Origin: a virus
IMG/VR virus record: IMGVR_UViG_3300030107_007521
Span: 1 to 46,538 of that record
DNA: 46,538 nt
Reading direction: 5' to 3' (one strand)
Shown here: positions 20-44,600 of the stretch, one piece after another
Numbering within the stretch: position 1 is the first letter of the stretch
Layout of the letters: each line of letters starts with the position of its first letter
Notes under the pieces: model-generated
The model's input: the letters and a program-made list of their open reading frames with translations, nothing else
Told to the model about the DNA's origin: nothing
Databases searched by the model: none
Position numbers and translations under genes: made by a program

Positions 20-2452
20 ATGGCAAGAAACAGGACAATTTATTCAAATGAAATTTTGATGGTAGCCCCGTCGGCAACTGGTTCACAAGATCTAAATTAT
101 GGAGGCCCTGGAGAAAGTCTGATTAGACAGCTTAAACGCGTCCAAAACGTTAACTACGCATTCTCAATTAACAGAACTGATACTTACCAATTTGGTCAAC
201 TATCTAGAATTGATTCCGCTGTTTTGTCTGCACCCGCGGTTTCACTAGATTTTTCTTATTATCTTACTGACGGACAAAATGAAAATTTATTAGGATTTGA
301 TAATGCTGAAAATTCAAATTTTTTAGCAGAAGACTTTATAAATGATCAAGATGGTAGAAACTTTTACATTTATACTGCAGACCAAAAAAATGATGCAATT
401 GGAAGTATTGTAAACCTAGAAAGTCAAGACGACTCAGGAAAGAGCGTTACAGCTATAGGAAACTGCTACGTTACAAATTATTCAGTGAACGCAGCAGTAG
501 GCGGGCTCCCAGTTGCGTCCGTATCAGCAGAAGCCTTTAATATCAAAGTTGATGCAGGCAATAAGGGTGGCACAAGCCCAGGAATTAACATAAAAGAAGG
601 TACAAAATCAACAAATCAATATGTTATTCCAAATGAATACATCAGTACTGGTGAAGGCGTAGCCCAACTACTTCCAGGAGATATAGAAGTAGATTTTGGC
701 ACTGGTTCACTGCTAAGTTTAGTTGCTGATAGTGACACAAGAAATTCATCACATATTCAAAGTGTTTCAATAGACATTCCACTAGGCAGAACAACACTGC
801 AGAGAGTTGGTAACTCTTTTGGATACTCTAAAGTCCTTAACACTCCAATTACTGCTTCAGTAAGTATATCAGCGATTTTAGCGGATCGACCAAACGAACA
901 CCGCTCTTTGTTTGAAGAAGTTTATTCAAATAATAGTAATGACATTAAGATAACAATGCGAAAGCCATCTTCCGCAGGAGCAAAACAAGGAGATAAATCT
1001 ATCATATATACTTTAAAAAATGCTACATTAGCGAGTGAGTCTTATGGAATGTCTATTGGAGACAATAGAAGCGCTGACTATACTTTTACTGCTCAATTAG
1101 GAGATCCTGCAACTGTTGCTGACGGATCATTAGGAGGAGCTTTCACAATGAACTCTTCAGGGATTTACGAACAGTTACAAGTTTTTGAGACAGGAGTGTC
1201 AACAGATACATCGAATCATTTTAAAGATAACATTGGTTATGGTCATGCTATTGCTGCCAACAATGATATTTTAGTTATTGGCGCTAGTGGATTTAGAAAC
1301 TCTAATTTTGAGCTCGGAGCTGCATATATTTACAAAAAAGAAAAAGGATTTTATAAGCAAGTTCAGCTTACTTCTGGACAAAATCACGCTGCAGGCTTAA
1401 GCAATGCAAGTTTTTTTACTTTTGATGAAGATGACATGGATGTAAATGTTGGTTTTGATGTAGCAGTTAGTCCACAAAATCTTATTGCTTTGGGAGCAAT
1501 GAATTCAGACTTTGGCAGCAGTGCTGTTGCAATACTGCACCCAAATGATACACTAACAAACTGGACTGTAAATGATATAGTAACTGGAGCGGCAGATGCA
1601 CTGGATACTATAAATCTTGGTCGAAGCATAGCTTTTGACAAAGAAGTTAGCGGAACAACACAATGGTTCGCTGCTGGAGCGCCACTTCATAGTCCCAGCG
1701 GCGAGTTGGGTATGGTGCAGGTCAGGTACGGAACTAAAGGCGAAGTAAATAGTTTTGCGGGTTATGAGTTACCAAAGTCAAATACTGAACTACCAGGATC
1801 TGCCGTTCATGATGTAAATGAAAGATTTGGAACGTCAGTAGCGATACATAATGGGCGGATCGTAGTCGGCGCACCAGGTTACTCTGATCAATCTGGAGTT
1901 GCCTATGTTTATGCCGCTGATGGTACAGGCCCACACACAAGCAGCGCTTCATGGGTTGAAGTTGCCCAATTAACAGGGCTTGAGGCTGAAATTGGAGATG
2001 CTACTCCTGCTTTTGGTCAATCTGTTGATATATATAGCAACACTATAGTTGTTGGAGCGCCCAGTGGGTTAGTCAATAACCAAGGATGCGCAGTTGTTTT
2101 CACAACTGACCAAACCTACAGAGGATGGTCTTTTGCAGCCACCTTATCTGCATCAGATGCAGCCAATGGTGATCTTTTCGGACATGCGGTATCAATGCCA
2201 AATAGCAGCACAATTGTTGTCTCCTCACCGAAAGATAATTATGACTCTGTTAATAACGGTGGTTCTGTATATGTTTTTACAGGCGCGGGAATTAATTGGA
2301 CAGAAACGCAAAAAATAAAATATACTGGTTCAATTAGCCAGGATGAGTTTGGTCGTTTTAATACTAGCTTAGCAACAACACAAAAAGATATCTTTGTCGG
2401 GGGGGAGCCACTGGCGGCAGCAACAGAAAAAGTTATTCGCTATAGAATATAA
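20..2452 (+). CDS. Tail-tube-like protein with C-terminal seven-bladed FG-GAP propeller
   Basis: The N-terminal part (about residues 1-370) is a paralogue of the two minus-strand proteins at 14961-16178 and 16246-17475. It shares the MARNRxIY start, an NRTDxxQFGQLxRID block, a TNYSxxAxVGxxP block, a SIDIPLGRxxLQRxGNSFG block and a closing NATLxSES block. I read this as the tail-tube fold. Residues about 406-810 hold seven repeats with FG-GAP signatures (FGTSVAIHNGRIVVGAPG, FGQSVDIYSNTIVVGAP and similar), starting near residues 406, 476, 533, 603, 665, 720 and 776, which is enough for a complete integrin-alpha-like propeller. An AAAGGG lies 8 bases before the ATG. The product may be a decorated minor tube subunit that displays propellers for host or matrix contact; that role is inference. 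The gene sits away from the other tube genes, left of phoH. Confidence 0.75.
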   Translation: MARNRTIYSNEILMVAPSATGSQDLNYGGPGESLIRQLKRVQNVNYAFSINRTDTYQFGQLSRIDSAVLSAPAVSLDFSYYLTDGQNENLLGFDNAENSNFLAEDFINDQDGRNFYIYTADQKNDAIGSIVNLESQDDSGKSVTAIGNCYVTNYSVNAAVGGLPVASVSAEAFNIKVDAGNKGGTSPGINIKEGTKSTNQYVIPNEYISTGEGVAQLLPGDIEVDFGTGSLLSLVADSDTRNSSHIQSVSIDIPLGRTTLQRVGNSFGYSKVLNTPITASVSISAILADRPNEHRSLFEEVYSNNSNDIKITMRKPSSAGAKQGDKSIIYTLKNATLASESYGMSIGDNRSADYTFTAQLGDPATVADGSLGGAFTMNSSGIYEQLQVFETGVSTDTSNHFKDNIGYGHAIAANNDILVIGASGFRNSNFELGAAYIYKKEKGFYKQVQLTSGQNHAAGLSNASFFTFDEDDMDVNVGFDVAVSPQNLIALGAMNSDFGSSAVAILHPNDTLTNWTVNDIVTGAADALDTINLGRSIAFDKEVSGTTQWFAAGAPLHSPSGELGMVQVRYGTKGEVNSFAGYELPKSNTELPGSAVHDVNERFGTSVAIHNGRIVVGAPGYSDQSGVAYVYAADGTGPHTSSASWVEVAQLTGLEAEIGDATPAFGQSVDIYSNTIVVGAPSGLVNNQGCAVVFTTDQTYRGWSFAATLSASDAANGDLFGHAVSMPNSSTIVVSSPKDNYDSVNNGGSVYVFTGAGINWTETQKIKYTGSISQDEFGRFNTSLATTQKDIFVGGEPLAAATEKVIRYRI

Positions 2453-2517: not shown

Positions 2518-3342
2518 ATGGCTAGAAAATCTGCTATCAAGGCGGTGTCTAATGCTGACGTTATTTGCGAAGCTGACGAAAACAACATAATAGACTGCAT
2601 GTCTTCTTTGAAAAAGAAAAAAATAAAATTAAACCCAGTAAAATTTACTGAAAAACAAAAACAATTTTTGAAATTATCGATTGCCAAAGATACGAAAATG
2701 ATGTTTGTACGTGGTCCCGCTGGAACAAGCAAAACTTATTTGGCTGTATATACTGCACTTCAACTCTTCAATATTAACAACGATTATGATATTATGTATG
2801 TTCGTACTATTGCTGAAAGTGGTGAAAAAGGTTTGGGCTCGCTTCCAGGAGACGTTAATGAAAAGTTTAATCCTTTTATGATGCCATTAAATGATAAGCT
2901 CGAAGAAATGATAACTTCACAAGAAAGAAACTTTTTAGAACAAAAGAAAATCATAAATGCTATGCCTATAAATTATTTGCGCGGCTCAAACTGGATTAAC
3001 AAAATTATTATTGCAGACGAGTCTCAAAATTTTACCGCAAAAGAGTTAACAACTCTAATAACAAGGCTAGGAGAAAATAGTAAATTATTTATTTGCGGTG
3101 ACCCTATGCAAAGTGACATTAATGGTAAAAGCGGGTTTAAAACTATATCAAATCTTTTTAATGATCAAGAATCTAACGAAAAAGGTATATATTGTTTTGA
3201 CTTTTATAAGGAGGATATTGTAAGAAGCGAGATACTTAAATTTATTGTTGGTAAGCTTGAAAAACTACAAGAAATTCCTGCTCCAGCTAAAAAAAGAGCC
3301 ACAAGACAAAATAAAAGTGTAAACACTAAACGTTCAAGTTAG
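2518..3342 (+). CDS. phoH: PhoH-like P-loop ATPase
   Basis: The protein has 274 residues. The Walker A motif GPAGTSKT spans residues 66-73. The Walker B region IIIADESQN puts D167 and E168 at the catalytic positions. Further on, LFICGDPMQSD matches the GD-x-x-Q motif that PhoH proteins share with superfamily-1 helicases. The C-terminus (about 250-274) is a basic tail without a domain I recognise. PhoH-family ATPases are frequent in marine phages, and their role in infection is not settled (phosphate stress and RNA handling have both been proposed). It is the first gene of the run that leads to terL. The ATG is preceded by an A-rich leader with no Shine-Dalgarno sequence. Confidence 0.9.
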   Translation: MARKSAIKAVSNADVICEADENNIIDCMSSLKKKKIKLNPVKFTEKQKQFLKLSIAKDTKMMFVRGPAGTSKTYLAVYTALQLFNINNDYDIMYVRTIAESGEKGLGSLPGDVNEKFNPFMMPLNDKLEEMITSQERNFLEQKKIINAMPINYLRGSNWINKIIIADESQNFTAKELTTLITRLGENSKLFICGDPMQSDINGKSGFKTISNLFNDQESNEKGIYCFDFYKEDIVRSEILKFIVGKLEKLQEIPAPAKKRATRQNKSVNTKRSS

Positions 3343-3372
3343 AAATATTTTAAAAAATATATAAAATAAAAT

Positions 3373-3762
3373 ATGCCATTTAGATACTGTACACAATGTG
3401 GTTTTAAAAACGTTTATACTTTAAACGAGGCAAAATTTTGTGCTGGTTGTGGGCAATCACTGAACCAGGCGACAGCAGGCAACGAACCACAAACCACGAA
3501 CGCACCTCACCTGCAATCAGCACAAGCTAATTTAGAAGAGCCAGCGGATATTCCAAATATTTCAAAATTAGAATACTCTGTTGATGTTGGTGCAAACAAT
3601 AAGACCACTATTGGTCAAATTATCAATTCAAAACAATCTTCATCTGAAGGTACGAGGATCTCAAATACTAGTCAAGCTTCAAAAAGAATGACTCGAGAAG
3701 AAATTGAAGCAGAAACTATGAGAGAGTGTCAAAGTGCTCGTAACAGACCTTTAGGTGATTAA
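3373..3762 (+). CDS. Small zinc-ribbon protein
   Basis: The protein has 129 residues. The N-terminal zinc ribbon is made by C6-x2-C9 and C23-x2-C26, in the form CTQCG...CAGCG. The remainder is hydrophilic, rich in N, Q, S and T, and probably disordered, with an acidic/basic helix near the C-terminus. The stop overlaps the start of the sigma factor gene as TAATG, so the two are probably translationally coupled. That pairing makes a role alongside the sigma factor in transcription possible, but this is only inference from the neighbourhood. The leader (3343-3372) is almost pure A/T with no Shine-Dalgarno sequence. Confidence 0.75.
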   Translation: MPFRYCTQCGFKNVYTLNEAKFCAGCGQSLNQATAGNEPQTTNAPHLQSAQANLEEPADIPNISKLEYSVDVGANNKTTIGQIINSKQSSSEGTRISNTSQASKRMTREEIEAETMRECQSARNRPLGD

Positions 3763-4478
3763 TGCCTTGCAAAAAGAAATATAAGTACGAAGACAAAGTC
3801 GAAATTATTGACGCAGAGCTTCAAAAAAGAAAACACAAGTGGCATTTAAATGCACTTGCATGGTTTGATTTCGAAGACGTTGAGCAGATAATAAGATTTC
3901 ATATTTTTAAAAAGTGGGATCAATGGGATCAGTCAAGAAATCTTGAACCATGGATTAATAAAATTATTTCTAACCAACTTAAAAATATTCTAAGAAATCA
4001 TTACAGTAACTTTGCGCGACCATGCTTAAACTGTCCATTTAATGAATCAGAAGAAGAAGGCGGAGGCGAAAACAGTTGCTCATTCACGCCAAGCAAAAAA
4101 CAATGTTCTGAGTGCAAGCTTTATGCTAAATGGGAAAAAAGTAAAAAGCATGCGTATGATATTAAGCTGCCATTGGCGCTTGAAAATCACCAACAAGAAG
4201 TATTTTCTATTTCAACAACAGAGTTTAATTTTGGTGACTCTATAAAAAAACTACACATTGAAATGAAGTTGATATTAAATACAAAACATTATAAAGTTTA
4301 TGAAGATTTGTTTATTAAAAATTTGCCAGAAGATGAAGTTGCAAAAGATCTTGGTTATACCACTAATGAAAAAAATAGAAAAGCTGGATACAAACAAATT
4401 AAAAACTTAAAAAAGATGTTTAAAGAAAAAGCTATTTTGATTATTAAGGAAAAAGACATTATAATAACAAATGAGTGA
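3762..4478 (+). CDS. Phage sigma-70-like factor, probable late-transcription sigma
   Basis: The protein has 238 residues. Residues about 20-80 resemble sigma region 2 (FEDVEQIIRF, then WINKIISNQLKNILRNHY). A cysteine-rich insert follows, with C88-x2-C91, C106 and C115-x2-C118, likely a zinc site. Residues about 170-230 resemble the region 4 helix-turn-helix (LPEDEVAKDLGY then KNLKKMF). This layout is seen in phage sigma factors that direct host RNA polymerase to late promoters, as T4 gp55 does. Its presence next to structural genes that share an upstream GTGTAAT motif suggests that the motif is its target. It overlaps the zinc-ribbon gene by TAATG and the next gene by 8 bases. Confidence 0.75.
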   Translation: MPCKKKYKYEDKVEIIDAELQKRKHKWHLNALAWFDFEDVEQIIRFHIFKKWDQWDQSRNLEPWINKIISNQLKNILRNHYSNFARPCLNCPFNESEEEGGGENSCSFTPSKKQCSECKLYAKWEKSKKHAYDIKLPLALENHQQEVFSISTTEFNFGDSIKKLHIEMKLILNTKHYKVYEDLFIKNLPEDEVAKDLGYTTNEKNRKAGYKQIKNLKKMFKEKAILIIKEKDIIITNE

Positions 4479-5523
4479 ATTAACTGAAGAACAAAAAAAG
4501 TTAATTGCAGAAAACTATAAATCCATACCAGACTTGACACGGCTAACCCAAATAGTATCGGGTGATGATACTATTGATGGCAGAAGTAAAATTGGCAGAT
4601 CTATCAGAAAGTTCATGGTTGATCAGGGTTTGAACTATCAAACTTCTAAGCACGCAAAAGTTGAAGAAATAGTTTTAACACATGAAGAAAAAGAATTTTT
4701 AAATTCTCATGCTGGCCAAGATATGTCAAGTATACAATTAGCGGAGTTGTTGTGGCCAAATAAAGAAATAAAAAAACTTTCAAAAGAGCAAAGAGTTGTT
4801 GCAGATTATATCAAGAATCATCACCCAGATTTTGTAAAGTCAGAAGAAAGCGCGGTGGGCACAAAATATAGTCCGCCTAAAGCTTTATCAAGGTCAATCA
4901 AAAAGATAAATGACTTTGCGGGTAAAGATCTTGATGAAAACAAACTGCAAATGCAAGACAGAAAAGCTGCAGAGAATCTAATGAACTTTTTGTCAAGCCC
5001 TAGATTTTTACAAGTGATTAACAACTATGGATCGCAAGAAGATAGAGAGCTATTTGAAGCAGAGTTTGTAAGATGCGTTTGGGATAAGCCAGATTTAACG
5101 TCCGACGAAATTAACTTGTACATCAATGTATGTATGGATTATATAAACCTAAAACATATTGAACAGCAAAAGGCTAAATTAAATATGATGTTTGATGATG
5201 CCCAAGATCAACAAGAGTTTACGATTCGCTTAACAGAGATTCTAAAGACTAAAAGCGAAGAATATAATCAATGCGCATCACGTATGGACAAATTGATCAC
5301 TAAATTAAATGGTGATCGTGCAAAACGTGTCGCATCTAGGAATCAACAGAACGCTAGTATTTTAAATATTGTTCAACTTTTTCAAGAAGAACAAGAGCGC
5401 GGGATTATGGTTAAGATGGCTGAAATGCAAAAGAAAGTCGTACGCAAAGAAGCAAATGAACTTGAATCTATGGGCGAATGGAAATCAAGAGTTTTAGGAG
5501 TAAGAAAAGACGATGTCATTTAA
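4471..5523 (+). CDS. Unrecognised protein, possible terminase small subunit
   Basis: The protein has 350 residues and matches no family I can name with confidence. Residues about 85-115 (around GQDMSSIQLAELLWP) look like a helix-turn-helix. The second half (about 220-330) is strongly charged, helical and probably coiled coil (LNMMFDDAQDQQEF, FQEEQERGIMVKM). DNA-binding N-terminus plus oligomerising helical region is the design of small terminase subunits, and terL lies two genes downstream, but at 350 residues it is long for that role. It overlaps the sigma gene (ATGAGTGA) and the nuclease gene by 11 bases, so it belongs to the same operon. Confidence 0.5.
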   Translation: MSELTEEQKKLIAENYKSIPDLTRLTQIVSGDDTIDGRSKIGRSIRKFMVDQGLNYQTSKHAKVEEIVLTHEEKEFLNSHAGQDMSSIQLAELLWPNKEIKKLSKEQRVVADYIKNHHPDFVKSEESAVGTKYSPPKALSRSIKKINDFAGKDLDENKLQMQDRKAAENLMNFLSSPRFLQVINNYGSQEDRELFEAEFVRCVWDKPDLTSDEINLYINVCMDYINLKHIEQQKAKLNMMFDDAQDQQEFTIRLTEILKTKSEEYNQCASRMDKLITKLNGDRAKRVASRNQQNASILNIVQLFQEEQERGIMVKMAEMQKKVVRKEANELESMGEWKSRVLGVRKDDVI

Positions 5524-6499
5524 CTGTAAGGAATGTGGTAAGGATTTTGGCTCTGAGGCGGCGCTTCACCGTCACCTAAAAGGCCATGATATGACACTTG
5601 CGGATTATTATACAAAACATTTTCCAAGAAAGAATTTATTAACTGGTGACCCTTTGCCATTTAAGAACAAGAAGGATTATTTTGCAAAAGATTTTTCTAC
5701 ATACAGTCAACTGTTGAAATGGTGCCACCATTCAGATGTTAACGAAGTTAAAAAATATACTTTGAAAAAACTGAAAGAACGCATACAAGAAAAAGAATTA
5801 AAACTTGGCCCAACACACTTAGAACTTTTATTAAGTGATTTGCCCACAATAGACATTTACAAAAAGTTTTTCACAAGTTATTCTCATGCCTGTAGTCAGG
5901 CTGGAGTGCGTCCAATGCTATATAGAAACTTAGATGAAACGTTTTTTACTCAAGAAGGTTTTGACAACTTAGAAATAGTTATTGACACACGCGAGAACAA
6001 TCCACTACCTTTCAAAAATACTAAAAAGTTTGCATTAGACTTTGCGGATTATACCGCAAGTGGCGCTAAATATGATTATACATTTGTAGAAAGAAAAAGC
6101 GAATCAGATTTTAAATCTACAATGTCGTATAACTTTCCGCGGTTTAGAAAAGAAATGGCAAGAGCAAAAGCGATGGACAGTTATGTGTTTGTTGTGGTTG
6201 ACAGCAGTATACAAAAAATTAAAAAACAAAATCACTTTTCTCCACATCCTGCAAACTTAAAATTTATTTTTCATAATATGAAAGCATTATGCCACGAGTT
6301 CCCAGAAACATGTCAATTTGTTTTTTCTGGTAATAGAACTTCTTCGATGGATTTGATTCAAAGAATTTTATATTTTGGAAGAAAGATATGGTATTCTGAT
6401 TTACAATATCACATAGACGCAAGAAATTATGGCTTGGCAAGAAGGCAATCAAAAAAGAAGACTCAGCAAAACCCGCGATATAAACAAAGAGCTTCTTGA
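5513..6499 (+). CDS. ERCC4/XPF-type nuclease with N-terminal C2H2 zinc finger
   Basis: The protein has 328 residues. A C2H2 finger occupies the first 25 (C5, C8, H21, H25, in CKECGKDFGSEAALHRHLKGH without the final part). The middle is a helical linker. From residue about 155 the ERCC4 nuclease core appears: IDTREN at 157-162, then DFADYT, then VERKSESD at 192-199. These match the metal-binding D and the ERK-x3-D signature of XPF-family nucleases. Being immediately upstream of terL, and overlapping it by 71 bases, it may act on branched or packaging DNA; that role is inference. The finger may supply DNA specificity. Confidence 0.8.
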   Translation: MSFNCKECGKDFGSEAALHRHLKGHDMTLADYYTKHFPRKNLLTGDPLPFKNKKDYFAKDFSTYSQLLKWCHHSDVNEVKKYTLKKLKERIQEKELKLGPTHLELLLSDLPTIDIYKKFFTSYSHACSQAGVRPMLYRNLDETFFTQEGFDNLEIVIDTRENNPLPFKNTKKFALDFADYTASGAKYDYTFVERKSESDFKSTMSYNFPRFRKEMARAKAMDSYVFVVVDSSIQKIKKQNHFSPHPANLKFIFHNMKALCHEFPETCQFVFSGNRTSSMDLIQRILYFGRKIWYSDLQYHIDARNYGLARRQSKKKTQQNPRYKQRAS

Positions 6500-8300
6500 A
6501 GGTGATCTTGGTTTCTTAGAAGAAAAAGAAGCCAAGCTTTTACTGTATAAGTTCTTGCGAGAAAACACAACTTTTGCAGCAGATTTATTGATGGGTATAA
6601 AACTTTTTCCGTTTCAGCATATGTCTGTAAAGGCCATGTTTGAAACAGATTATTTTATGGGCGTGTGGTCCCGTGGTATGTCAAAGTCTTTTACAACCGC
6701 TATTTTTGCTGCGCTCGATGCTACATTGAATCAAGGAGTTGAAATAGGGATACTTTCTAAATCTTTTAGGCAGGCAAAAATGATCTTCAAAAAAATAGAA
6801 GATATTGCAGCAAAGCCTGAGGCAGCGTTATTTGCTCAGTGCATCACAAAGAAAAGTAAGAGTAATGATGAATGGTTGCTAGAAATTGGCAGTTCAAGAA
6901 TACGAGCGTTACCATTGGGTGATGGTGAGAAACTACGCGGTTTTCGTTTTCATAGAATCATTATTGACGAATTTTTGCTCATGCCAGAAAGAATTTACAA
7001 TGAAGTTATTGTGCCATTTTTATCTGTGGTAGAAAACCCAACACAGCGTGAGGATTTATATAACCTTGAAACAGATTTAATTAAACAAGGAAAAATGACT
7101 GAAGCAGAAAGATATGTTTGGCCAAACAATAAACTTATAGCACTTTCTTCTGCGTCTTACAAATTCGAGTATATGTATAAATTATACAGTCAGTTTGAAA
7201 ACTTAATCTTTAATCAAAGCTCAAAAGACACTGCGCATAGAACAATTATGCAATTTTCATATGACTGCGCTCCTAAACAGTTGTATGATCAAAACTTAAT
7301 TAATCAAGCAAAAGCAACCATGAGTGAGTCTCAGTTTGATCGCGAGTTTGGAGCAAAGTTTACAGACGACAGTAGTGGTTATTTTAAGATTTCAAAAATG
7401 GCAGAATGTACTGTACCAGATGGAGAAGACCCCTCTATTGAAGTCGCTGGTGAGCCTGGCGCAGAATATTTATTAGCCTTCGACCCAAGCTGGGCAGAAA
7501 GTGAAAGCTCTGATGATTTTGCCATACAAGTTTTAAAATTAAATAAAGAAAAACAAATTGGTACCGTTGTTCATAGTTATGCGCTGTCTGGCGCAAACAT
7601 GAAAGAGCATATTCGATATTTTCATTATCTACTTACTAACTTTAACATTGTGATGGTTGTAGGCGACTATGCTGGTGGCGTACAGTTTTTAAGCGCATGT
7701 AATGAGAGCGAAACATTTAAGAAGGACAAAATTAATTTAGGAATTATTGACGTTCCATTTGAGCATTCTGAAAGTTACAGACAAGATCTACAAAACGCTA
7801 GAAATTCTTACAACATAAAAGAAAAAAAGATTTGCTATTTAAGAAAACCTACAAGCAATTGGATTCGACAGGCTAACGAGTTATTACAATCTAATTTTGA
7901 TCATAAAAGGATATTTTTTGCGTCAAGAGCTATTGACGACTCGTATCAAAACCAAAAAAGAAAACATATACCAATTGACACATTAAAATATCTACGTTCT
8001 GGTGATAGTGAAAAAATGGGCAGAGAAGCAAAAATGATTGATTTCATTGAACATCAAACTGACATAATTGATCTAACAAAAGTAGAGTGCGCACTTATAC
8101 AAATAACAACTACCTCTCAGGGAACGCAAACCTTTGACCTACCGCCTAATCTCAAAAGGCAATCTGGCAGAGATAAAGCTAGAAAAGATAGCTACTCAGC
8201 TTTAGTATTAGGCAACTGGATGGTAAAAACATATTTTGATATGATGAACTTTAAACAGGAATCCGTTCAATCTACTTTTACTCCCATGTTTATAAACTAA
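6429..8300 (+). CDS. terL: Terminase large subunit (TerL): packaging ATPase and nuclease
   Basis: The protein has 623 residues. The P-loop variant WSRGMSKS is at 80-87 and the Walker B motif RIIIDE ends with D180 and E181. The C-terminal RNase-H-like nuclease shows D352 in LAFDPSW and D413 in VVGDYAGG, the usual metal-binding acids. TerL pumps DNA into the prohead through the portal and cuts concatemers. The start chosen overlaps the nuclease gene by 71 bases; the next in-frame methionine that could serve (residue 56) would still leave both domains intact. The portal gene follows after a short gap that contains a palindrome. Confidence 0.93.
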   Translation: MAWQEGNQKRRLSKTRDINKELLEGDLGFLEEKEAKLLLYKFLRENTTFAADLLMGIKLFPFQHMSVKAMFETDYFMGVWSRGMSKSFTTAIFAALDATLNQGVEIGILSKSFRQAKMIFKKIEDIAAKPEAALFAQCITKKSKSNDEWLLEIGSSRIRALPLGDGEKLRGFRFHRIIIDEFLLMPERIYNEVIVPFLSVVENPTQREDLYNLETDLIKQGKMTEAERYVWPNNKLIALSSASYKFEYMYKLYSQFENLIFNQSSKDTAHRTIMQFSYDCAPKQLYDQNLINQAKATMSESQFDREFGAKFTDDSSGYFKISKMAECTVPDGEDPSIEVAGEPGAEYLLAFDPSWAESESSDDFAIQVLKLNKEKQIGTVVHSYALSGANMKEHIRYFHYLLTNFNIVMVVGDYAGGVQFLSACNESETFKKDKINLGIIDVPFEHSESYRQDLQNARNSYNIKEKKICYLRKPTSNWIRQANELLQSNFDHKRIFFASRAIDDSYQNQKRKHIPIDTLKYLRSGDSEKMGREAKMIDFIEHQTDIIDLTKVECALIQITTTSQGTQTFDLPPNLKRQSGRDKARKDSYSALVLGNWMVKTYFDMMNFKQESVQSTFTPMFIN

Positions 8301-34308: not shown

Positions 34309-35394
34309 ATGGCACAAGAAAGTCAATCAAATCAATATTCTCACATCGACTCGTTCGAAGAAGTTAATACGATTAAATTTAACGAGCAAATACAGTCCTT
34401 AGAAGGATCTGTAATAATTGAGCTCTTTGAAATAGACACGGCAAAATATGGCGGTCAGGTTTATAGATTTCATGCTGGAAAAGTTATTCAAGGAGACATT
34501 ACTTTTGCTAGTCAGACCTATCAAGCTTATTCTTTAGAAGTTGAGGATTTTGAAATTAGAGGTGATGGAGCGCTGCCTAGACCTAAAATTGTATTTGCAA
34601 ATACTGATGGATTTATTTCTAATATTATAAATGGAAAAGACGATTTTGTTGGATTAAAAGTAAAAAGAATTAGAACGTTTTTAAAGTATTTAGATGAAGT
34701 AAATTTCGTTGACAATATTAATCCGTACGGAACTCCAGACGAAACGGTTAAATTTCCTGATGAAAAATATTTTATAAATAAAAAAATAGTTGAAGATAAA
34801 AATGTTATAGAGTTTGAGCTGGTTTCTGAGTTAGAGCTTGAAAGTGCAAAACTGCCAGCACGCACTGTTTATGCTAATTACTGTCCGTGGATTTACAGAG
34901 GTAATGGTTGTCACTATGGCAACAAAGACGTACATCCAAAATCAACGTGGTTACTGCCTACTGATGAAAACATACTTGGGCAACCTGTGGCAGATGCAGA
35001 TAATAACAGATTTAGAGGTGAAGTATATGGATTTTCTACAGGTGGAAACGCACCGTGGCAAGGAAATCTTAGCTCACCATTTGCAAATTCTGGTTCGTAT
35101 GATGCAACTGGTATATATGCTAGCGGTGACTATGTAACAATTCAAAGTACTGAATCTGATGAAATTAAATTATATTTTGTTGCAAAACCCACTGGCAAGA
35201 TAGCAACAGAATTTCAAAGTGCGGCTCTAACTTTTTTTAATGTTTCAGGCAAAGACCCAAGGTACGACGCAGATAATTGGGTTCAAGACCAATGCTCAAA
35301 AAATCTTAGTGGGTGCTTGTTAAGATTTGCGAATACAAATAAAGGTTTGCCATATGGAGGTTTTCCTGGAGTAGAGAGATTTCCTTATGGATAA
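34309..35394 (+). CDS. Lambda gpL-like minor tail protein, Fe-S cluster type, with an insertion
   Basis: The protein has 361 residues. The N-terminal part has the L pattern (VIIELFEID, QAYSLEVEDFEIRGDGALPRPKI without its ends). The C-terminal part has CPWIYRGNGCHYG and QCSKNLSGCLLRF followed by LPYGGFPG. The four cysteines C192-x8-C201 and C329-x6-C336 keep the spacing of the iron-sulphur ligands reported for lambda gpL. Between the pairs, about 127 residues replace a short loop and carry a CBM-like segment (GIYASGDYVTI ... YFVAKPTG ... DNW). It forms part of the tip ring that receives the tape measure. It overlaps the K-like gene by 8 bases. Confidence 0.85.
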   Translation: MAQESQSNQYSHIDSFEEVNTIKFNEQIQSLEGSVIIELFEIDTAKYGGQVYRFHAGKVIQGDITFASQTYQAYSLEVEDFEIRGDGALPRPKIVFANTDGFISNIINGKDDFVGLKVKRIRTFLKYLDEVNFVDNINPYGTPDETVKFPDEKYFINKKIVEDKNVIEFELVSELELESAKLPARTVYANYCPWIYRGNGCHYGNKDVHPKSTWLLPTDENILGQPVADADNNRFRGEVYGFSTGGNAPWQGNLSSPFANSGSYDATGIYASGDYVTIQSTESDEIKLYFVAKPTGKIATEFQSAALTFFNVSGKDPRYDADNWVQDQCSKNLSGCLLRFANTNKGLPYGGFPGVERFPYG

Positions 35395-36118
35395 AAAAAT
35401 TGAAACCCTTTTAATTACTCACGCTAAAATTGAACCAGAAAAAGAATGTTGCGGATTTATTGTTTTAGATAATTTAAAACAGTTAATAATTATACCTTGC
35501 GAAAACATATACGATTATCCAAAAGAGGGATTCAAAATCTCTCCTTATAAGTTTTTACAAGTAAAGAAAAAATATGATATAATTTGTTTATATCATTCTC
35601 ATCCAGTTGGTGACGCTATATTTTCACAAAAAGATATTAATCAATCTGAAGAACTGTGTATTCCTATTTGTTTGTACGCGTTAGAAACAGATAGTTTTAA
35701 CATATTTTTTCCTACAAGCTATTCAGTACCACCATTAATTGGACGCGACTATATAGAACATTTTCAAAATTGTTGGAAGTTTGTATATGATTATTATACG
35801 TCAATTGGACTTTTGAGTGACTATGATTTTAACTTTTATTTGAGAAGATTAGGTCAATATGAATATCACTCGAGTGTACTAGATAAATTTAAAAATTTTT
35901 TTAAAAAAAATGATATACAAAGAATATCTAAAAATTTGGCTCAACCCGACGATCTTTTGGTATTTTCTGCTCAGAACAAGTCTGTATCGCATTTTGCAAT
36001 AATGTTGGATGACGATCAGTTTATGCAGCATCAAATGGGAACTTTATCTTCAAAAAGAATGCTTGACGATGTTTTTTTAAAAAAAATACATAGTGTATAT
36101 AGAATAGCAAATAAATAG
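35387..36118 (+). CDS. Lambda gpK-like tail-tip hydrolase (JAMM plus NlpC/P60)
   Basis: The protein has 243 residues in two domains. The JAB/MPN metallopeptidase is at about 1-110, with E20, the H70-S-H72-P motif and S80-x2-D83, a complete zinc-binding set. An NlpC/P60 domain follows, with catalytic C129 (in QNCWKF) and H202 (in VSHFAIM). In lambda and relatives K takes part in tail-tip assembly and is thought to process peptide or peptidoglycan substrates. The gene overlaps the L-like gene, and a promoter-like motif starts exactly at its stop. Confidence 0.88.
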   Translation: MDKKIETLLITHAKIEPEKECCGFIVLDNLKQLIIIPCENIYDYPKEGFKISPYKFLQVKKKYDIICLYHSHPVGDAIFSQKDINQSEELCIPICLYALETDSFNIFFPTSYSVPPLIGRDYIEHFQNCWKFVYDYYTSIGLLSDYDFNFYLRRLGQYEYHSSVLDKFKNFFKKNDIQRISKNLAQPDDLLVFSAQNKSVSHFAIMLDDDQFMQHQMGTLSSKRMLDDVFLKKIHSVYRIANK

Positions 36119-36132
36119 TGTAATAATACTTA
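36118..36132 (+). promoter_or_regulatory. Putative late promoter (GTGTAAT motif) for I, J and the fibre
   Basis: GTGTAATAATACTTA starts at the last base of the K-like gene (its TAG stop provides the G) and lies 26 bases before the I-like ATG. AAGG at 36140 follows as a ribosome site. Confidence 0.6.
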
Positions 36133-36143
36133 ACGGTCTAAGG

Positions 36144-36818
36144 ATGAAAACTATACATTTACATGGAAAAATTGGTAAAATGTTTGGAGAAAAATGGCTA
36201 CTCGACGTAGATTCTGTAACAGAAGCGTTGCGAGCGATTGATGCAAATGTTGGAGGATTTTTTGACTATTTACTAGATAATCTTCAAGAAAACAAAACTT
36301 TTTCTTTTCTTCTGGACAGCGAAGAACATACGATACAATCTAAAGAAGAGTTGATTGTGCCTTTGCCAAAAAAATGCAAAGAATTTCATATAATACCGAA
36401 TGCAGAAGGAGCTTTAACAGCTTTTGTTACTTCTTTAGTGGTTACTCTTGCAAGTGGATTTATTATGCGCGCTCTTTTTAAGCCGCCGAAACCAGAAGAA
36501 GAAAGACAAAGTAAATCATTTTTATTCTCTGGTGGAGAAAATGTTGCACAACAAGGAGCCGCTGTACCTTTGGGCTACGGAAGACTTTTAGTCGGCTCAG
36601 TGGTTGCTAGCGCAACAATGGAACATATTGATAGACACAGAGTTGACACAACTAGTGACGTTAGCACTTCACAATCTCATGTTAGGTTTTTTAAGAATTT
36701 AGGTAATGTATCTAAATATCAAGAAAATCTAGGAGATACAAAAGTTTATTTAGAGAATACAGATCCAGTAGGAGTATTTTCTCTAGATCAAGACTCTGGC
36801 GGAGGAGCAGGAGGATAA
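36144..36818 (+). CDS. Lambda gpI-like tail assembly protein
   Basis: The protein has 224 residues. The N-terminus is a ubiquitin-like fold (MKTIHLHGKIGKMFGEKW, then VPLPKKCKEFHIIPNAEG). A hydrophobic helix follows (about 90-112, ALTAFVTSLVVTLASGFIMRAL). The end holds AVPLGYGRLLVGS, a block typical of I proteins. The C-terminus finishes with a glycine-rich tail. The I protein helps assemble the tip with J and is not thought to remain in the virion in lambda. It ends 3 bases before the J-like start. Confidence 0.85.
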   Translation: MKTIHLHGKIGKMFGEKWLLDVDSVTEALRAIDANVGGFFDYLLDNLQENKTFSFLLDSEEHTIQSKEELIVPLPKKCKEFHIIPNAEGALTAFVTSLVVTLASGFIMRALFKPPKPEEERQSKSFLFSGGENVAQQGAAVPLGYGRLLVGSVVASATMEHIDRHRVDTTSDVSTSQSHVRFFKNLGNVSKYQENLGDTKVYLENTDPVGVFSLDQDSGGGAGG

Positions 36819-36821
36819 TTT

Positions 36822-39800
36822 ATGGCTACTAATGTAGGTTTAGGTAAAAAGTTTAATGCTGTATTAGGAATACATGGTGGAACCTATGATTCTTATACTT
36901 ATCCTTATTATGATTGGAAACTTGACACTGCGATTAGAAAAGAAACACCTTTGGTTAGCAAGGCAAATAAAAAAGATGAAGACCAATACTTTGAATCTGC
37001 AAGCTTATCAAAAATAGTTGATTTAATTTGCGAAGGCCCAATAGAGGGTTTTTCTGATAAAGGCGGAAATACTATCAGATTTTTTTCCGCATTACGTTCA
37101 CAAAATTTACAATATTTAAAATCAATATTTTTAAATGATACTCCCGTATTAAATGAAAGAGATAATACTTTTAATTTTAGAGTTTTTGATGCAGATTTTA
37201 GGGAGGGAATAGCTAGACAAGAACCTTTTCCAGATTCTTATAAAAGTCACGGTAAAACTATTTTCTATAATTCTCAGCTTTTTCCCGCTAATAGTGACGT
37301 GCCTAAAACAGCTGGACTAAAAGAACTGTCTAAAGTATCAACATATTCTAGAGAGCTGGGTCCTAATGCGTATGAGGGAGATCTTTTTAATGTGGCAATG
37401 GGTAAAGATGGAAAATTTGATGACATCTTAAAAGCTGCGGGAGTTGCCATAGAATTACAAGATGCCAAAGGGATAGCGGGTATTGTTAAAGTTTTTCCAG
37501 AACAAAAAATTGCACTACATGAACAGTTTAAAAAGTTAGAAAGGCATATGCATCCAGTGGTGCATACAATTACCGACACAAACGTAGACATTGTTTCGGT
37601 TGTTATTAATGTCCACGCTTTGAGCAAAACCGTTGTAGGAAAAAGAACTACAAGAAATAAGCCCGCAGAACTTAGTTTTTTAATTTATGTTAACAATGAG
37701 GGAGAGCCTTCAATTGAGCAGCCGCCAATACTGGAAGTCACTCCTGAAATGGCAGAAAATGCCGAAGGGGGAGCGTCCGATGGTACAAATTTTGCCATTA
37801 ACGGTCAAATTTACAATACTGTGCGCGGTTATGTTCCTCATGAGCTAATAGAAAATGACACTGGTGGATATTTTGTCAGAAGAGTAAGAGGCTTTGCAAC
37901 TAGTGATTATTTATTCGAAACAAAAATTCATTTGCCTCCAAATCCAAAAGGTAAAAAAAGAGTTATAAGAGTTTCAAGGATAGATCCTGATGAAGAGTTC
38001 AAGGGCGGAAAAGATTCAGTGATTGTCTCGGCTAGTTTACATTCTATTGTAGAGACAGTATCTTGTAAATTATATTATCCAGATTCGGCAATTATTGGTA
38101 CTACTATAGACTCTAGGGCATTTGCAAGTGTTCCAGATAGAAAATATTTATTAAAACTTTTGAAAATTAAAGTACCTTCTAATTATCTGCCTGATACTAA
38201 AGAATATGTTGGTAACTGGAATGGTAAGTTTAAGTCTAAAGATATTGTCAATACGTCTTCCCTGACTGGAGATTCTCTAACTGGCGTTTCTTTGTCTTCT
38301 TACAAATTAAGAGAAGCTAAAACCGTGATTAATCCAGATGGAGCAGTAAAAGTAAACACTTCAGTTAAAAAGTTTGGTAGCGGCGCTATATTTTTCCCAA
38401 GCTCGGATACTTTTGGTACAGACGCAGAAACTGGAAAAGTTTTATTAGTTAGAGACAGCTTTTCAACAGTTACCAATCCAACAAGTCGTGGAGATCTTTC
38501 AGTTACGCCCGAGGCACCTCTTGGCACTTTTGATGGAGTGAATTTTACTGTTGAGTTTTATGTAAAAGCTAGTGCTACACAAATTCAAAATGTTTATGAT
38601 TTAAAAGTTGCGAGTAGTGGCGTCGACTCTTCTAGTGGTGTAGAAGGAGTGCCTAAGGTGATAATTGCTTCAGAAGAAAATAGTTCAATTAATTGGGACG
38701 GAAATGGAGGCATTCCTGGCCTAGCTGAAATGACCGTAATATCAGATCAAATTCAAAAAGAGTTAGAAAGAGACAGTATTAGTAGTACTTTTGCTAGTTT
38801 ATTGGGTGGCTCTTGGAGAATTGAGGTAGGAACTAAAAACAGCTCCGATCCAGATGACACTGATTTAGGAAAAGTTAGATTTCGGGCATTTAGTCCTGTT
38901 GGTAGCATTCAGTTTCAAACTGTCAATAGCAGCTTGGGAACCACATCCAACCTAGTTCCAGAATTTTCCGATCTTAAACTGCAAAAACAAGCAGACATAA
39001 CAAGCACCACTAACATTGCCGACGATGCTTGGCATCATATTGCGGTTGTAAGGAACGGAGACAATATGTACATGTTTGTGGACGGAACAAGAGAAGCTTC
39101 AATTACTATTGACAAAAGGCCGATTTTCGGTTTTAAATATTTATCTGGAGAAAGCGCAACAAGAGGCGAAATACAAATTGGTGGAACAAAAACACCTTAT
39201 GTATCAAAAAATAATAAACTTTATGCTATATCGTTTAATGGTTATATGGATGAAATTATAGTTTCTAAAAAAGCAAAATATATAGAGTCATTCAATGCAA
39301 AGACGCATCCAAGAGGAGGTGCAGGTGTCAACCCAGATAATTTAAAAGATTTAATAAAAAATGATTTTACAACACAGTTTTATATAAAAGGTGATGACAG
39401 AGATAATAATTCTACAGACATATTTGATTTTACCGAGGCAATAGTTGATGAGTCATTTAGGTTTGATGAAGACGCAGAATTTGATTCTGCTGAGTTACAG
39501 TGGACTGATAATCCAGCGTGGATATTTTATGATTTAGTTACAAACAAAAGATATGGAATGGGTAAATTTGGTTTAAATGCTGAGTCAATTGATAAATGGA
39601 ATTTATATGAAATTGCAAAATATTGCGATGAAAAAGTTAAGACTGGCTTGGATCCAAAGTATAAACCTAGAAAATTTACGGTAAGCACTAATCCAAAGCA
39701 TGGTAGCTCCAGAATACAAATCGAAGGTTTTTTAAATCAAGCGCAATTTGAAAAAGAATTTCCAGAATACTCAACAATAGCACTGTATGATTTGAATGAT

Positions 39801-41612
39801 GAAAAAGAACCCGTTCATAGAAGAATAAAATATTTAAGAAAGTATTCAAGAGAAAAAGCTGGTGGTGCTAGCTCAGCGCTTGTGCAAACAAATGAAAGAT
39901 ATTCCACTTCAAAGCCAAATAAACTAAGAAGCTATCGCGGAAGCGATGAAAATTCTGCAGGTTCAGCAATAATAGAGTTGCATAAATTGATTTCACCAGA
40001 AGAGTGTTTACGAATACATCCAGGAATATCTGATTTATTAAGATCAAAAAAACAAAATGTAAACGCTAATTTTTTTGAAAAAAATGCAACAGATACCCAG
40101 TTAATATTGCAATTTATGGATGATACTAAAAACAAAAATTCTGTAATTACCCAAAACTTTGATGTTAGACAAAAAATAAATAGTACGTCAACTTCTGGCC
40201 TTGCGGCAACAGAATTTTATGGAAACTTTGATATTCTTGAGCCAAGATTTTCTGCTAATCTATATATTACTACTCAAGTGGATGCATATAAAATATTAAA
40301 TGATGTAGCTTCTATATTTAGAGGCATCACGTATTTTGCAAATGGTAAAGTATTCGCGCATTTTGATAAAAAACGCGACGCAATATTAAATTTTACAAAC
40401 GCAAACGTTAAAGATGGTAATTTTAGTTATTCTGGCTCATCTAAATCAGATAGATTCACAACATGTATTGTGAGGTATGTTGATAAATATGAAAATTATA
40501 AACCTAAAATAGAATATGTTGAAGATCCAGACGGAATCGTTAAATACGGTATTATAGAAAAAGATTTAGTTGCATTTGGCTGCGCTTCTCGATCTCAAGC
40601 TCGCAGGCTGGGAAGGTGGTTTTTGTTTTCCGCTCAATATGAAACAGAGACAGTAGAATTTTCTTCTGGTAAAGAGTGCGCTTATTTAAGGCCTGGAGAC
40701 GTTTTTAAAGTAATAGATAAAACGAGAACTCAAAAAAGATTCGGAGGAAGAGTAGTTGATTTTGTTTCTGGCGAACAGAAAATAAAAGTTGATTTAAATT
40801 TGTCAGAAGATTATGTTGGTGAAAGTATTTTCATAACAATAATTCAGGACTTTGAGTTTTCTGATTCTTTAAATAAAAAAGTTGATAGAATTACTGTAAC
40901 AGACGAAGGCCAAATACAACAAAAAACTGTAAATGATGAAGAAATATCAAATATAAGAAAATCACAAGTAAAAGAGTTTAAAATAAAAAGTATTTCTGTA
41001 GATAAGTCCACAGTGCCCCATGAAAACAGAATAGTAGAGCTAGAGGAAGTTGATGGAACTTCTTTAGATGATTTTGGTAAAATTAATATTGGATCTATTT
41101 TTATTCTCAATCAAAAAGGTGTAGACGTTAAAATTCAAGAAGATACTTTTAAAGTAATAAACGTAAGGCAAATAGATGATTTAGAATATGAAGTGCAAGG
41201 TGTTAAGTACATAGAATCAAAATATGATTTATCTGATAATAAATCTAATACAAAACTTAACATAAATTATACAAAGAGTCCATTAACTTATTCTAGACCA
41301 GCAAAACCCATTGGGGTACCAAGAATTTCTATCAGCTCTTTGAAAGGCGGCTTAGAAAGAGAACTCACTGTTTCTTGGGAGCCTGTTTCCACAACGCCAG
41401 ACAAATATAAAGTTGTCATAACATTGCAAGGGCAAGGATCTGATTCTACTTCTTCTGGCAAGAAAATAGTATTAGAAAAAAATGCTAAAGATGCTAATTC
41501 ACAAGTGGTGGATACATCAATTAGTGTAAACATAGGCAACTACTCGGGCGAGATAGATGTCGCAATATATTCCATCGACTCCAACGGAAATTTAGATTTA
41601 ATATACTACTAA
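36822..41612 (+). CDS. Lambda gpJ-like central tail-tip/host-specificity protein with an internal laminin-G-like domain
   Basis: The protein has 1596 residues (lambda J has 1132). The N-terminus has the usual J block: LSKIVDLICEGPIEGF (about 62-78), then LKSIFLNDTPV. A block NPAWIFYDLVTNKRYGMG near residue 897 and AKYCDEKV after it are also characteristic. Between these, residues about 571-815 form an insertion with a concanavalin/laminin-G-like pattern (FTVEFYVKA, WHHIAVVRNGDNMYMFVDG, GYMDEIIVSKKAKY). The C-terminus has a fibronectin-III-like domain (about 1490-1596). J forms the trimeric hub and spike and decides host range in lambda; the extra domain probably adds a surface-binding site. 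Confidence 0.92.
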   Translation: MATNVGLGKKFNAVLGIHGGTYDSYTYPYYDWKLDTAIRKETPLVSKANKKDEDQYFESASLSKIVDLICEGPIEGFSDKGGNTIRFFSALRSQNLQYLKSIFLNDTPVLNERDNTFNFRVFDADFREGIARQEPFPDSYKSHGKTIFYNSQLFPANSDVPKTAGLKELSKVSTYSRELGPNAYEGDLFNVAMGKDGKFDDILKAAGVAIELQDAKGIAGIVKVFPEQKIALHEQFKKLERHMHPVVHTITDTNVDIVSVVINVHALSKTVVGKRTTRNKPAELSFLIYVNNEGEPSIEQPPILEVTPEMAENAEGGASDGTNFAINGQIYNTVRGYVPHELIENDTGGYFVRRVRGFATSDYLFETKIHLPPNPKGKKRVIRVSRIDPDEEFKGGKDSVIVSASLHSIVETVSCKLYYPDSAIIGTTIDSRAFASVPDRKYLLKLLKIKVPSNYLPDTKEYVGNWNGKFKSKDIVNTSSLTGDSLTGVSLSSYKLREAKTVINPDGAVKVNTSVKKFGSGAIFFPSSDTFGTDAETGKVLLVRDSFSTVTNPTSRGDLSVTPEAPLGTFDGVNFTVEFYVKASATQIQNVYDLKVASSGVDSSSGVEGVPKVIIASEENSSINWDGNGGIPGLAEMTVISDQIQKELERDSISSTFASLLGGSWRIEVGTKNSSDPDDTDLGKVRFRAFSPVGSIQFQTVNSSLGTTSNLVPEFSDLKLQKQADITSTTNIADDAWHHIAVVRNGDNMYMFVDGTREASITIDKRPIFGFKYLSGESATRGEIQIGGTKTPYVSKNNKLYAISFNGYMDEIIVSKKAKYIESFNAKTHPRGGAGVNPDNLKDLIKNDFTTQFYIKGDDRDNNSTDIFDFTEAIVDESFRFDEDAEFDSAELQWTDNPAWIFYDLVTNKRYGMGKFGLNAESIDKWNLYEIAKYCDEKVKTGLDPKYKPRKFTVSTNPKHGSSRIQIEGFLNQAQFEKEFPEYSTIALYDLNDEKEPVHRRIKYLRKYSREKAGGASSALVQTNERYSTSKPNKLRSYRGSDENSAGSAIIELHKLISPEECLRIHPGISDLLRSKKQNVNANFFEKNATDTQLILQFMDDTKNKNSVITQNFDVRQKINSTSTSGLAATEFYGNFDILEPRFSANLYITTQVDAYKILNDVASIFRGITYFANGKVFAHFDKKRDAILNFTNANVKDGNFSYSGSSKSDRFTTCIVRYVDKYENYKPKIEYVEDPDGIVKYGIIEKDLVAFGCASRSQARRLGRWFLFSAQYETETVEFSSGKECAYLRPGDVFKVIDKTRTQKRFGGRVVDFVSGEQKIKVDLNLSEDYVGESIFITIIQDFEFSDSLNKKVDRITVTDEGQIQQKTVNDEEISNIRKSQVKEFKIKSISVDKSTVPHENRIVELEEVDGTSLDDFGKINIGSIFILNQKGVDVKIQEDTFKVINVRQIDDLEYEVQGVKYIESKYDLSDNKSNTKLNINYTKSPLTYSRPAKPIGVPRISISSLKGGLERELTVSWEPVSTTPDKYKVVITLQGQGSDSTSSGKKIVLEKNAKDANSQVVDTSISVNIGNYSGEIDVAIYSIDSNGNLDLIYY

Positions 41613-41613
41613 A

Positions 41614-44600
41614 ATGCCAATAGAAGCAAATTATTACTTACCGCCAATAGACTACTTTGCCGTAACAGGAAAAAAGTGGGAGATCACTGGCTTTAAGGTG
41701 CATACAGAGAGCTCAAAAGCTATATTCTTAGATCATTCTACTGGCCTAGCTCACGAGCTGTTTTCTGGTGCGGTAGAAAATGGATATTATACCACTGGCG
41801 CAACAGGCATTTATTCTGCAAGTGGCCAATATGACACAAGAGACCTTTCAATATCTTGGGGAGTAAAAGATCCTTCAACAAACTTGCAAGTTTCTGATTC
41901 AGCTTTATTGGGTAGATATTTACAAGGATTCGAAGTTAACTTTTATAATGCAACAGGAAAATTTCATAGTGGAATTAATTTTCAACAAGATGGTAGTATA
42001 CAAAAAATTGATTTGCTGTCTGGTGGATCGGGATATGTCAATCCTACGGTAGTAATCACAGGCGCAAAAGTTGGTGGAGAATACACTGCTCCATCTGGCA
42101 CTGGGGCAAACATAAGAGTTCGCAACTTAGGCACTGGGCTTCATAAAAGTGGATCAATACTTTCCATGCCAGAAAGTGGTCTTGGTTATTTGTCGGGAAT
42201 ATTTTATGTTGACATTGTTTCTGGGGGAAGTGGATATACCCAAGACACCGTTTTATTAGTGACTGGCAGCGGCGACTCTGCTCAAGCAGGAAAAGGTGTC
42301 GGTTCGGGTGCGATGTTGCAAATTAATGAATTTGGCCTTGGTAGGAGATATGGTTACACAGATTCAACAAATATCACTATACCAAGATTATTAAATCAAC
42401 AAATATTTGACAGCGAGGGTGAAAGAAAATATCAAATAGAGGTTGTTTCTGTTGATTATTATAGTAATAGGTCTACTGGCAGACTCATGGTAGATTTCCC
42501 TGAGCCAAACTTAGGAAATGTTTCTTTGGTTGATTTATCTGATGGTTTATCATTTCAGATAGATCCGCCGTCAAAAACTTTTAGGGGTCAAACTTTTGAA
42601 GATATAAGTTTACATGGAGTTTCTGTATATAGAGATGAAACAGAGAATTTTAAAATTAAAAATGATATAGGTGATAGCAATTTAGTAAAAAACCATACTA
42701 TTCCTGTTTCAGATAATCGTTTAAGCAATTTCAGTGAGATAAAAATTGATCCAGATTTATTTACTCAAGAAGACTCTTTTAAAGGGTATTATTATAAATT
42801 TGTTCCATACGATAATTTTGGTAGTGGTGCAGCAGTTTCTTTTGCAACTGGCATAAGGATAGGTGAAAATTTATTAACGCCAGATGTACCCTCTGGTTTT
42901 AGGCTTGTTACTGACCCTAGCAAAACTGTTGGAACAAACATTGAAGGTCAAACAGTTACAAACACATATTTAACTTGGAAAAAGGACAGACTCTTTGATG
43001 TTAGTCATTATGAAATAGTTTTAGATGATGAAGTTGAAAAAGAGTCAACAGTTTTTACTGTTACGCCTCCAACTGTTTCTGGCATAAATTATATGGTCAC
43101 TGGGACTGGTGCAAACATAGCTACTAACGATCAGGAAACTCTAACGCCAGTCTCTCCTATAAACTATTCTAGAAATATTTTTGATATTTTTTCTGCTTAT
43201 GGAAATGGTGGAATACAATGGATAGATCATACCGTATATTTAGATAGTAAATATCTAGATAATTTGTCAACAAGCTTTTCAAATGTACAAAAAATATTTG
43301 TTCCCTCAGGTAATACTGCAAGTGGATTTATTTATTTTACTGGTAATGAGGGTTATACCACAACTTATATAGCAGATAACAGATTATTATCTGATTCAGA
43401 TGGAGCTTTAGTTGCTAAAAATATTAATAATAAAATTGTAACAGAATTTGAGCCTAAATTACAAATTCCTTCAACCAGAGAAGGAGGTCAATATTCTGTT
43501 AAGGTTAGATCTTTTAATTTTAATAATTTTGCATCTAATTACAGTGCTAAAAAAGTTTTTACTGCAAGTGGCAATTCTAGCCATTTTACTTTTGTGCCAG
43601 GGCAGGCGCAGCTTAGATTAGGCGGAACTGGAGACATTACAGTCAATGGCGATTTTGCAACCACAGTTGGTGGCTCAGGAATAGTTGCGAACGGAAAAGG
43701 CATCGTTGTTGTGGGCGGCATGGACAACCGAGCTACTGGTGAAATTGCAGCCTTAGTTGGAGGCTCGGGCAATAGGCTTATAGGTAATGTTGGTGATCCG
43801 CAAGAAGGTCATTTTCTTGGAGGTGGCGCGCTAAATACTGGATCTGGGCAATTTACTGCAATGGTTGGCGGTCTTAGAAATAGCGCACAAGCTCACGGGG
43901 CGTTTTTAGGAGGAGGTATAAGAAACTATATTCCTCACGATGTTGCTGGTAACGATGCTAGTGTTGGTACCGCTTATTCATTAATTGGTGGAGGACTTGA
44001 TAATACGGTTAGTGGATTAGCCTCGATAATTGTTGGAGGAAACACAAATAAAATTGGAACAAATGCAGCAATTGGCGAAACAACTGCAACTAGATTTGTT
44101 AATGACGGACTTACTGATTCATCTTATTCTATAATAGCTGGCGGAAAAGATAATGAAATATATTCTTCAAATTCTTTTATTGGTGGCGGATTAAACAATA
44201 TTATTTTTGGCGGATCTTTTGCAGATAAAAGTAACATTCTTGGTGGATCTTTCAATACAATTAGTGGCGTTGCTGATACCGATGGAAGCGCAATATTAGC
44301 AGGAATACAAAACAAGCTTATTGATGCTGGCACCGCATTAGCTGGTGGAAGTTATTCATCTGGAACCGCAAACAACACTTTTGCTCTTGGCGTTCATTCT
44401 TGGGCTGCACATAAAGGAGCTTTTGTTCTTTCTGATTCTTTAACACCATCCGCAGACACTGACGGAACAGTCGCAAAGAAAAGTCATGGAACAAACACTT
44501 TAAATTTATTTTTCGACAGCGGCGTATATGTAAGAAATGGCGACGTATTTATTTCAGGTGATTTAACCGTAAGTGGATCGTCAAATATTGGCGGTGGCGG

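Follow-up and report, generated by a model that had tools for sequence, protein, structure and literature searches.

What decoration domains are for on phage tail tubes is an unsettled question, and it is raised again by the first gene in the record of an uncultured long-tailed phage (IMGVR_UViG_3300030107_007521; the window hereafter, meaning the whole stretch of 46,538 nucleotides that we analysed), in which a tail-tube-like domain is followed by an FG-GAP propeller. The reading that we favour, at a probability of about 0.6, is that this protein is a minor tube subunit with an exchangeable propeller adhesin, and the third member of a T5-type tube family in the phage. The record is a fragment whose first base lies only 19 bases ahead of the gene; the start ATG is nonetheless backed by a related sequence that reaches further upstream (L004), and the orthologues in L005, L006, L007, L095 and L116 (15928-18603, minus strand) are colinear with it from end to end.

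Decorated tubes as such are well known. The T5 tube is a stack of trimers, each subunit of which has two tube domains (PMC10038345, PMC8718954); the tube proteins of lambda and T5 carry Ig-like domains, a fraction of SPP1 subunits carries FN3 (PMC8718954, PMC6669499), and the TpeX tube extension of the 936 lactococcal phages, which is larger, binds carbohydrate and host cells and shows little conservation (PMC6669499). The generalization of the first-pass annotation, that domains added to tube proteins are usually small and Ig-like, is fair as a rule, with the larger carbohydrate-binding extensions of the 936 phages as exceptions (PMC6669499). In MTP-TpeX and SPP1 gp17.1*, as proposed here, the C-terminal extension is present on a fraction of the tube subunits (PMC6669499, PMC8718954); it is produced there by a translational frameshift, whereas the gene studied here is a separate, uninterrupted ORF to which an FG-GAP propeller has been added, and so falls outside the frameshift class. 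In the literature that we searched, mostly without subscription journals, we found neither a propeller on a tube protein nor a separate decorated tube paralogue of this kind described. Decorated tube proteins are a known theme, and an FG-GAP propeller on a separate tube paralogue is a new form of it.

The N-terminal part had been called tube-like on first inspection, and as a predicted fold this is borne out. An AF2 model of residues 1-397, built on an alignment of 60 sequences (pTM 0.76, mean pLDDT 72), matched tail proteins in a Foldseek search of the PDB over 367-431 alignment columns: the SH-Ab15497 major tail protein came first (8xan, 2.7e-11), followed by tail-tip and tube chains of DT57C and T5 (8hqz, 3.5e-11; 7qg9, 3.9e-11; 9iny, 1.6e-10) and by the tail tube of P74-26 (8ed0, 4.1e-10), and several major tail proteins in a library of viral models agreed. 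Shorter tail-tip chains of T5 and DT57C (~296-298 residues) were thus matched in addition to the tube chains. Residues 1 to ~381 are predicted to form two tandem tube β-sandwich domains in one chain, as in T5 pb6 and p140 and in P74-26, and almost certainly adopt that type of double tail-tube fold. In sequence the tube-propeller protein has no detectable similarity to PDB chains; for the tube part, a PHROGs search likewise gave nothing above noise.

For the C-terminal part, the Pfam family FG-GAP_2 (PF14312) matches the 810-residue protein with an E-value of 7.5e-27 and 93.7 bits against a curated cut-off of 23. The full-length AF2 model, a single chain like that of the tube part and built from 55 aligned sequences, is of moderate quality (pTM 0.63, pLDDT 72) and does not give the relative placing of tube and propeller; in a Foldseek search it nonetheless ranks tube proteins first and integrin α headpieces next (3v4v, integrin α4, 1.5e-8). 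It contains seven strand groups, at residues 405-450, 475-522, 536-583, 606-652, 668-709, 724-769 and 783-809. The last of these has three strands, and the strand at 387-389 is its candidate partner, which probably completes blade 7 and closes the ring. On this basis the propeller begins near residue 382 (nucleotide ~1163). The earlier claim of seven FG-GAP repeats closing a propeller thus holds up, while the span given for it (residues 406-810, nucleotides 1235-2452) was too short and left out the probable closing strand. The junction that includes this strand and the C-terminal RYRI are unvarying across the four propeller types compared. Chance or low-complexity repeats as the source of the FG-GAP signal are ruled out by the Pfam score and the model. 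Despite the fold match to integrin α, a pattern search of the propeller found none of the calcium-binding DxDxDG loops (D-x-[DN]-x-[DN]-G) of that family; RGD was not found in the protein, and a PDB search with the propeller sequence returned no relatives.

Table 1. Features of the window and tube paralogues with inserts in other phages. Coordinates are those of the window unless a record handle is given.
Feature	Coordinates	Strand	Basis or remark
Tube-propeller gene	20..2452	+	single uninterrupted ORF, 810 aa
Predicted double tail-tube domain, residues 1 to ~381	20..1162	+	AF2 and Foldseek
Junction motif GxYEQxQVxxTGxSxDT, residues 381-397, probably the strand that closes the propeller, and a linker	1160..1210	+	invariant alignment columns
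Predicted seven-bladed FG-GAP propeller, residues ~382-810	1163..2449	+	Pfam, strand groups, integrin α4 match
PhoH-like gene, constant downstream neighbour of the propeller gene	2518..3342	+	phrog_170, 4.4e-60
Large terminase	6429..8300	+	phrog_2, 4.2e-27
Tube paralogue P405, 405 aa	14961..16178	-	35% identical to tube part
Terminator-like hairpin between P409 and P405	16183..16220	-	13 pairs, then TTTTATAT
Tube paralogue P409, 409 aa	16246..17475	-	44% identical to tube part
Tape measure protein, 2180 aa	21674..28216	+	phrog_14917, 9.5e-41
Lambda-like tail-tip genes L, K, I, J	34309..41612	+	phrog_18, 30, 32; PF13550, PF13385
Insert-bearing tube paralogues	L052:11225-13738, L062:11208-13733, L032:9077-11191, L044:8888-11224, L071:7397-9943	+	

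The setting of the gene is not that of a major tube gene. It lies in a PhoH-terminase cluster outside the tail genes, with ~19 kb separating it from the tape measure, and this location counts against the view that its product is a tail subunit. A search of the record with the propeller protein as query revealed two further tube paralogues, P409 and P405, which are also present in other records of the lineage. P409 has the head genes on one side and the tape measure on the other, which is the site that the single tube gene occupies in relatives; it is the counterpart of that gene in sequence too, and is therefore probably the major tail tube protein, the propeller gene being classed as a paralogue. 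The hairpin that follows P409 (MFE -19.9 kcal/mol, z -5.0) is kept in five relatives, which suggests that P409 is a separate and strongly expressed unit, as would suit the major tube protein. P409 had no relatives in cultured phages at E-values up to 0.1, and matches in a promoter scan were no commoner than in shuffled sequence. From the ratio of tape measure length to tail length in T5, the tape measure may correspond, very roughly, to a tail of ~300 nm with on the order of 75 rings. Further downstream, the gpJ-like tip protein (36822-41612) carries a Laminin-G-type insert at residues ~720-817, and an incomplete fibre gene (41614-46536) contains repeats of VVSGDASITGEL and GGxxN segments.

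If the assignment were reversed, with the tube-propeller protein as the main tube protein and P409 and P405 as minor ones, propellers would line the entire tail. The complete tube domain and the conserved predicted inter-ring loop (see below) would allow this, and three big domains per ring appear sterically possible; but P409 occupies the site of the relatives' sole tube gene, the conserved hairpin behind it is of the kind expected for a strongly transcribed unit, and the fused gene is limited to a small lineage among the matches listed, so that we regard this arrangement as improbable. Given two undecorated paralogues, one of them placed like the tube gene of relatives, a minor subunit is the probable source of the propellers. 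The first-pass annotation had envisaged propellers either along the whole tail or at one ring; P409 and P405 favour a minor subunit or special ring and make a lining of the whole length unnecessary.

How the fused protein might fit into such a tube is suggested by the parts that would contact neighbouring rings. In T5, ring stacking is mediated by the N-terminus and long loops (PMC8718954, PMC10038345). Here the MARNRxIY start is retained, and the loop at residues 50-76, which we call inter-ring from the topology, is 71% identical between the fused proteins and the P409 orthologues, compared with 45% over the whole tube domain; in the P405 orthologues, which form a distinct, long-branched clade in the tube tree, identity in this loop is only ~27-30%. 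If the loop is assigned correctly, the fused protein has retained the means of stacking with P409, and P405 has not.

These data also bear on a different arrangement, in which the protein, like T5 p140, would occur only once, as a trimeric ring at an end of the tube, with its three propellers anchoring side fibres or a collar instead of touching the host. T5 does have such a second tube-type gene, comparable to the extra paralogues here, and the collar and side fibres of T5 are borne by the one ring made of p140, itself a tube paralogue (PMC10038345); the tail-tip chains matched by the tube fold, and a propeller gene that is separate and probably minor, fit this as well. An anchor should have a conserved partner surface, yet few of the segments compared diverge as much as the propeller; moreover p140, whose single ring sits above the distal tail protein, is undecorated, in contrast to the 430-residue decoration here, and P405, with its altered loop, would be the better counterpart of p140 if the loop is assigned correctly. 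We therefore think an anchor ring unlikely, though less so than a tail lined with propellers throughout. As for pb6, it resembles the minor subunit that we favour in having a C-terminal domain, which projects outward in T5 (PMC10038345, PMC8718954), and differs in that this is one small Ig-like domain on the tube protein, where our phage has a third paralogue with a propeller of 430 residues.

The search for tube-FG-GAP fusions in other phages that the first-pass annotation proposed brought up further cases. At least seven IMG/VR records, including the window, carry one; the six others are 3300020436_003733, 3300030090_005624, 3300030330_006886, 3300032087_004407, 3300030333_008349 and 3300030419_008186. 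The scans with the tube part used short peptide patterns, which matched 223 and 354 relatives, with up to 80 loci taken from each scan, and could have missed remote fusions. In every fusion record examined for context the fused gene lies upstream of PhoH, and it is the sole FG-GAP gene in the records that carry it. In a tree of tube domains the fused genes fall into one clade (support 100/100), and among 147 distinct tube-like ORFs sampled only this clade has a long addition beyond a complete tube domain; judging from these sequences, the propeller gene is an extra copy specific to a small lineage, among the matches listed. Tube paralogues of other phages have inserts of ~170-350 residues at varied sites within the tube domain, without a Pfam match above cut-off; these are other decorations on the same tube scaffold. 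A search of cultured phages with the 810-residue protein gave matches to the propeller only, and the bacterial genome collection yielded ten loci, all on MAG contigs.

What the propeller may do is suggested by how it changes. Compared with three relatives (G001-G003), the window is 99% identical in the terminase and 98-99% in PhoH at the amino acid level, and 92-98% in most other packaging genes. In the fused gene the tube part is 87-88% identical, while the propeller drops to 42-43% by BLAST (~48% over aligned columns). P409 is at 77-83% and P405 at 48-89%, and the fibre gene is 55% identical in G002, the only one of the three that covers it. The P405 values are split, with 88-89% in two relatives and 48% in the third, and P405 seems to have been swapped too, independently of the propeller gene. 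In G004 the tube part and the propeller are 61% and 60% identical to the window, and in G005 58% and 33%. The two parts also give conflicting trees: in the tube tree the window joins L005-L007, the AU test rejecting both alternatives (p=0.014 and 4e-6), whereas in the propeller tree it joins L095, with the alternatives rejected at p about 1e-4, in a test of six sequences of which three are near-copies. This conflict indicates that the propeller has passed as a module from one lineage to another, the switch lying near residues 390-405. The third-codon-position identity of the tube part, 0.52-0.54 against ~0.91 in PhoH, shows a divergence above that of the flanks, so that the whole fused gene has probably been exchanged as well. 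Fast divergence of the propeller could instead reflect relaxed constraint. A diversity-generating retroelement was rejected as the cause, since no reverse transcriptase was present in the five records searched.

A captured tube copy might also have served as the scaffold of a secreted or intracellular FG-GAP protein that never enters the virion. That would agree with a gene outside the tail cluster and with the existence of FG-GAP proteins in other phages that have no tube part; the tube part, though, is kept at 87% identity with its predicted inter-ring loop conserved, and the fused gene is colinear across related records, which leaves this explanation with little weight. We consider the presence of the protein in virions likely. 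Exchange of the propeller as a module fits an adhesion role, to which we lean with somewhat less confidence.

Phage propellers and FG-GAP repeats have precedents in other contexts. The receptor-binding protein of phi11 and 80alpha has a β-propeller proposed to bind host glycan (PMC7048315); it has five blades and belongs to a trimeric fibre protein of the tail tip (PMC7048315), in contrast to seven blades on a tube-type protein. FG-GAP-like repeats are phage-encoded in Vibrio phage nt-1, cyanophage S-MbCM6, where the protein is annotated as structural, and Sinorhizobium phage Phosso; a tube domain was not found in these three cultured-phage matches within the stretches examined.

Several other genes of the relatives deserve mention. 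L007 encodes a tubulin/FtsZ-type GTPase (3236-4531, minus strand; PF00091, 1.4e-19) in a close relative of the phage, with ~90 additional N-terminal residues and FtsZ as its nearest PDB chains, an ammonium transporter (234-1457, plus strand; PF00909, 3.2e-116) and a DUF1552/HXXSHH protein (4693-5976, plus strand; 1.4e-81), a family that might be of use in placing the host. Divergent neighbours of the fused gene (L004, 23-1576, and L007, 8390-9949, both minus strand) have ankyrin repeats and a weak likeness, below cut-off, to nucleotide cyclase catalytic domains. Amid the purine and folate genes PurT, SHMT and AIRS, L110 carries a Cas12f1-like/TNB nuclease domain (3386-4807, plus strand; 4e-12), probably a transposon-type nuclease.

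Returning to the minor tube subunit, we envisage that the double tube domain would form a trimeric ring that fits P409, and that a short linker would hold the propeller on the outside of the tube, where it may bind the host surface or surrounding glycans. The subunit would be dispersed among the P409 rings or would make up one special ring, and the propeller would be replaced as hosts or surfaces change. Whether the propeller serves in the tube rings as an exchangeable adhesin of a second host or particle recognition system, evolving like a tail-tip receptor-binding protein, seems to us evenly balanced. One copy of a tube gene appears to have been given over to carrying a large binding-type domain, which changes or is swapped far faster than the flanking particle genes, in the manner of receptor-binding domains. 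If this is true, the tail shaft would serve as a second surface for adhesion, the three paralogues would be an example from nature of tubes assembled in a mixed or ring-specific way, and the tube domain would offer a scaffold to display large folded domains on tubes.
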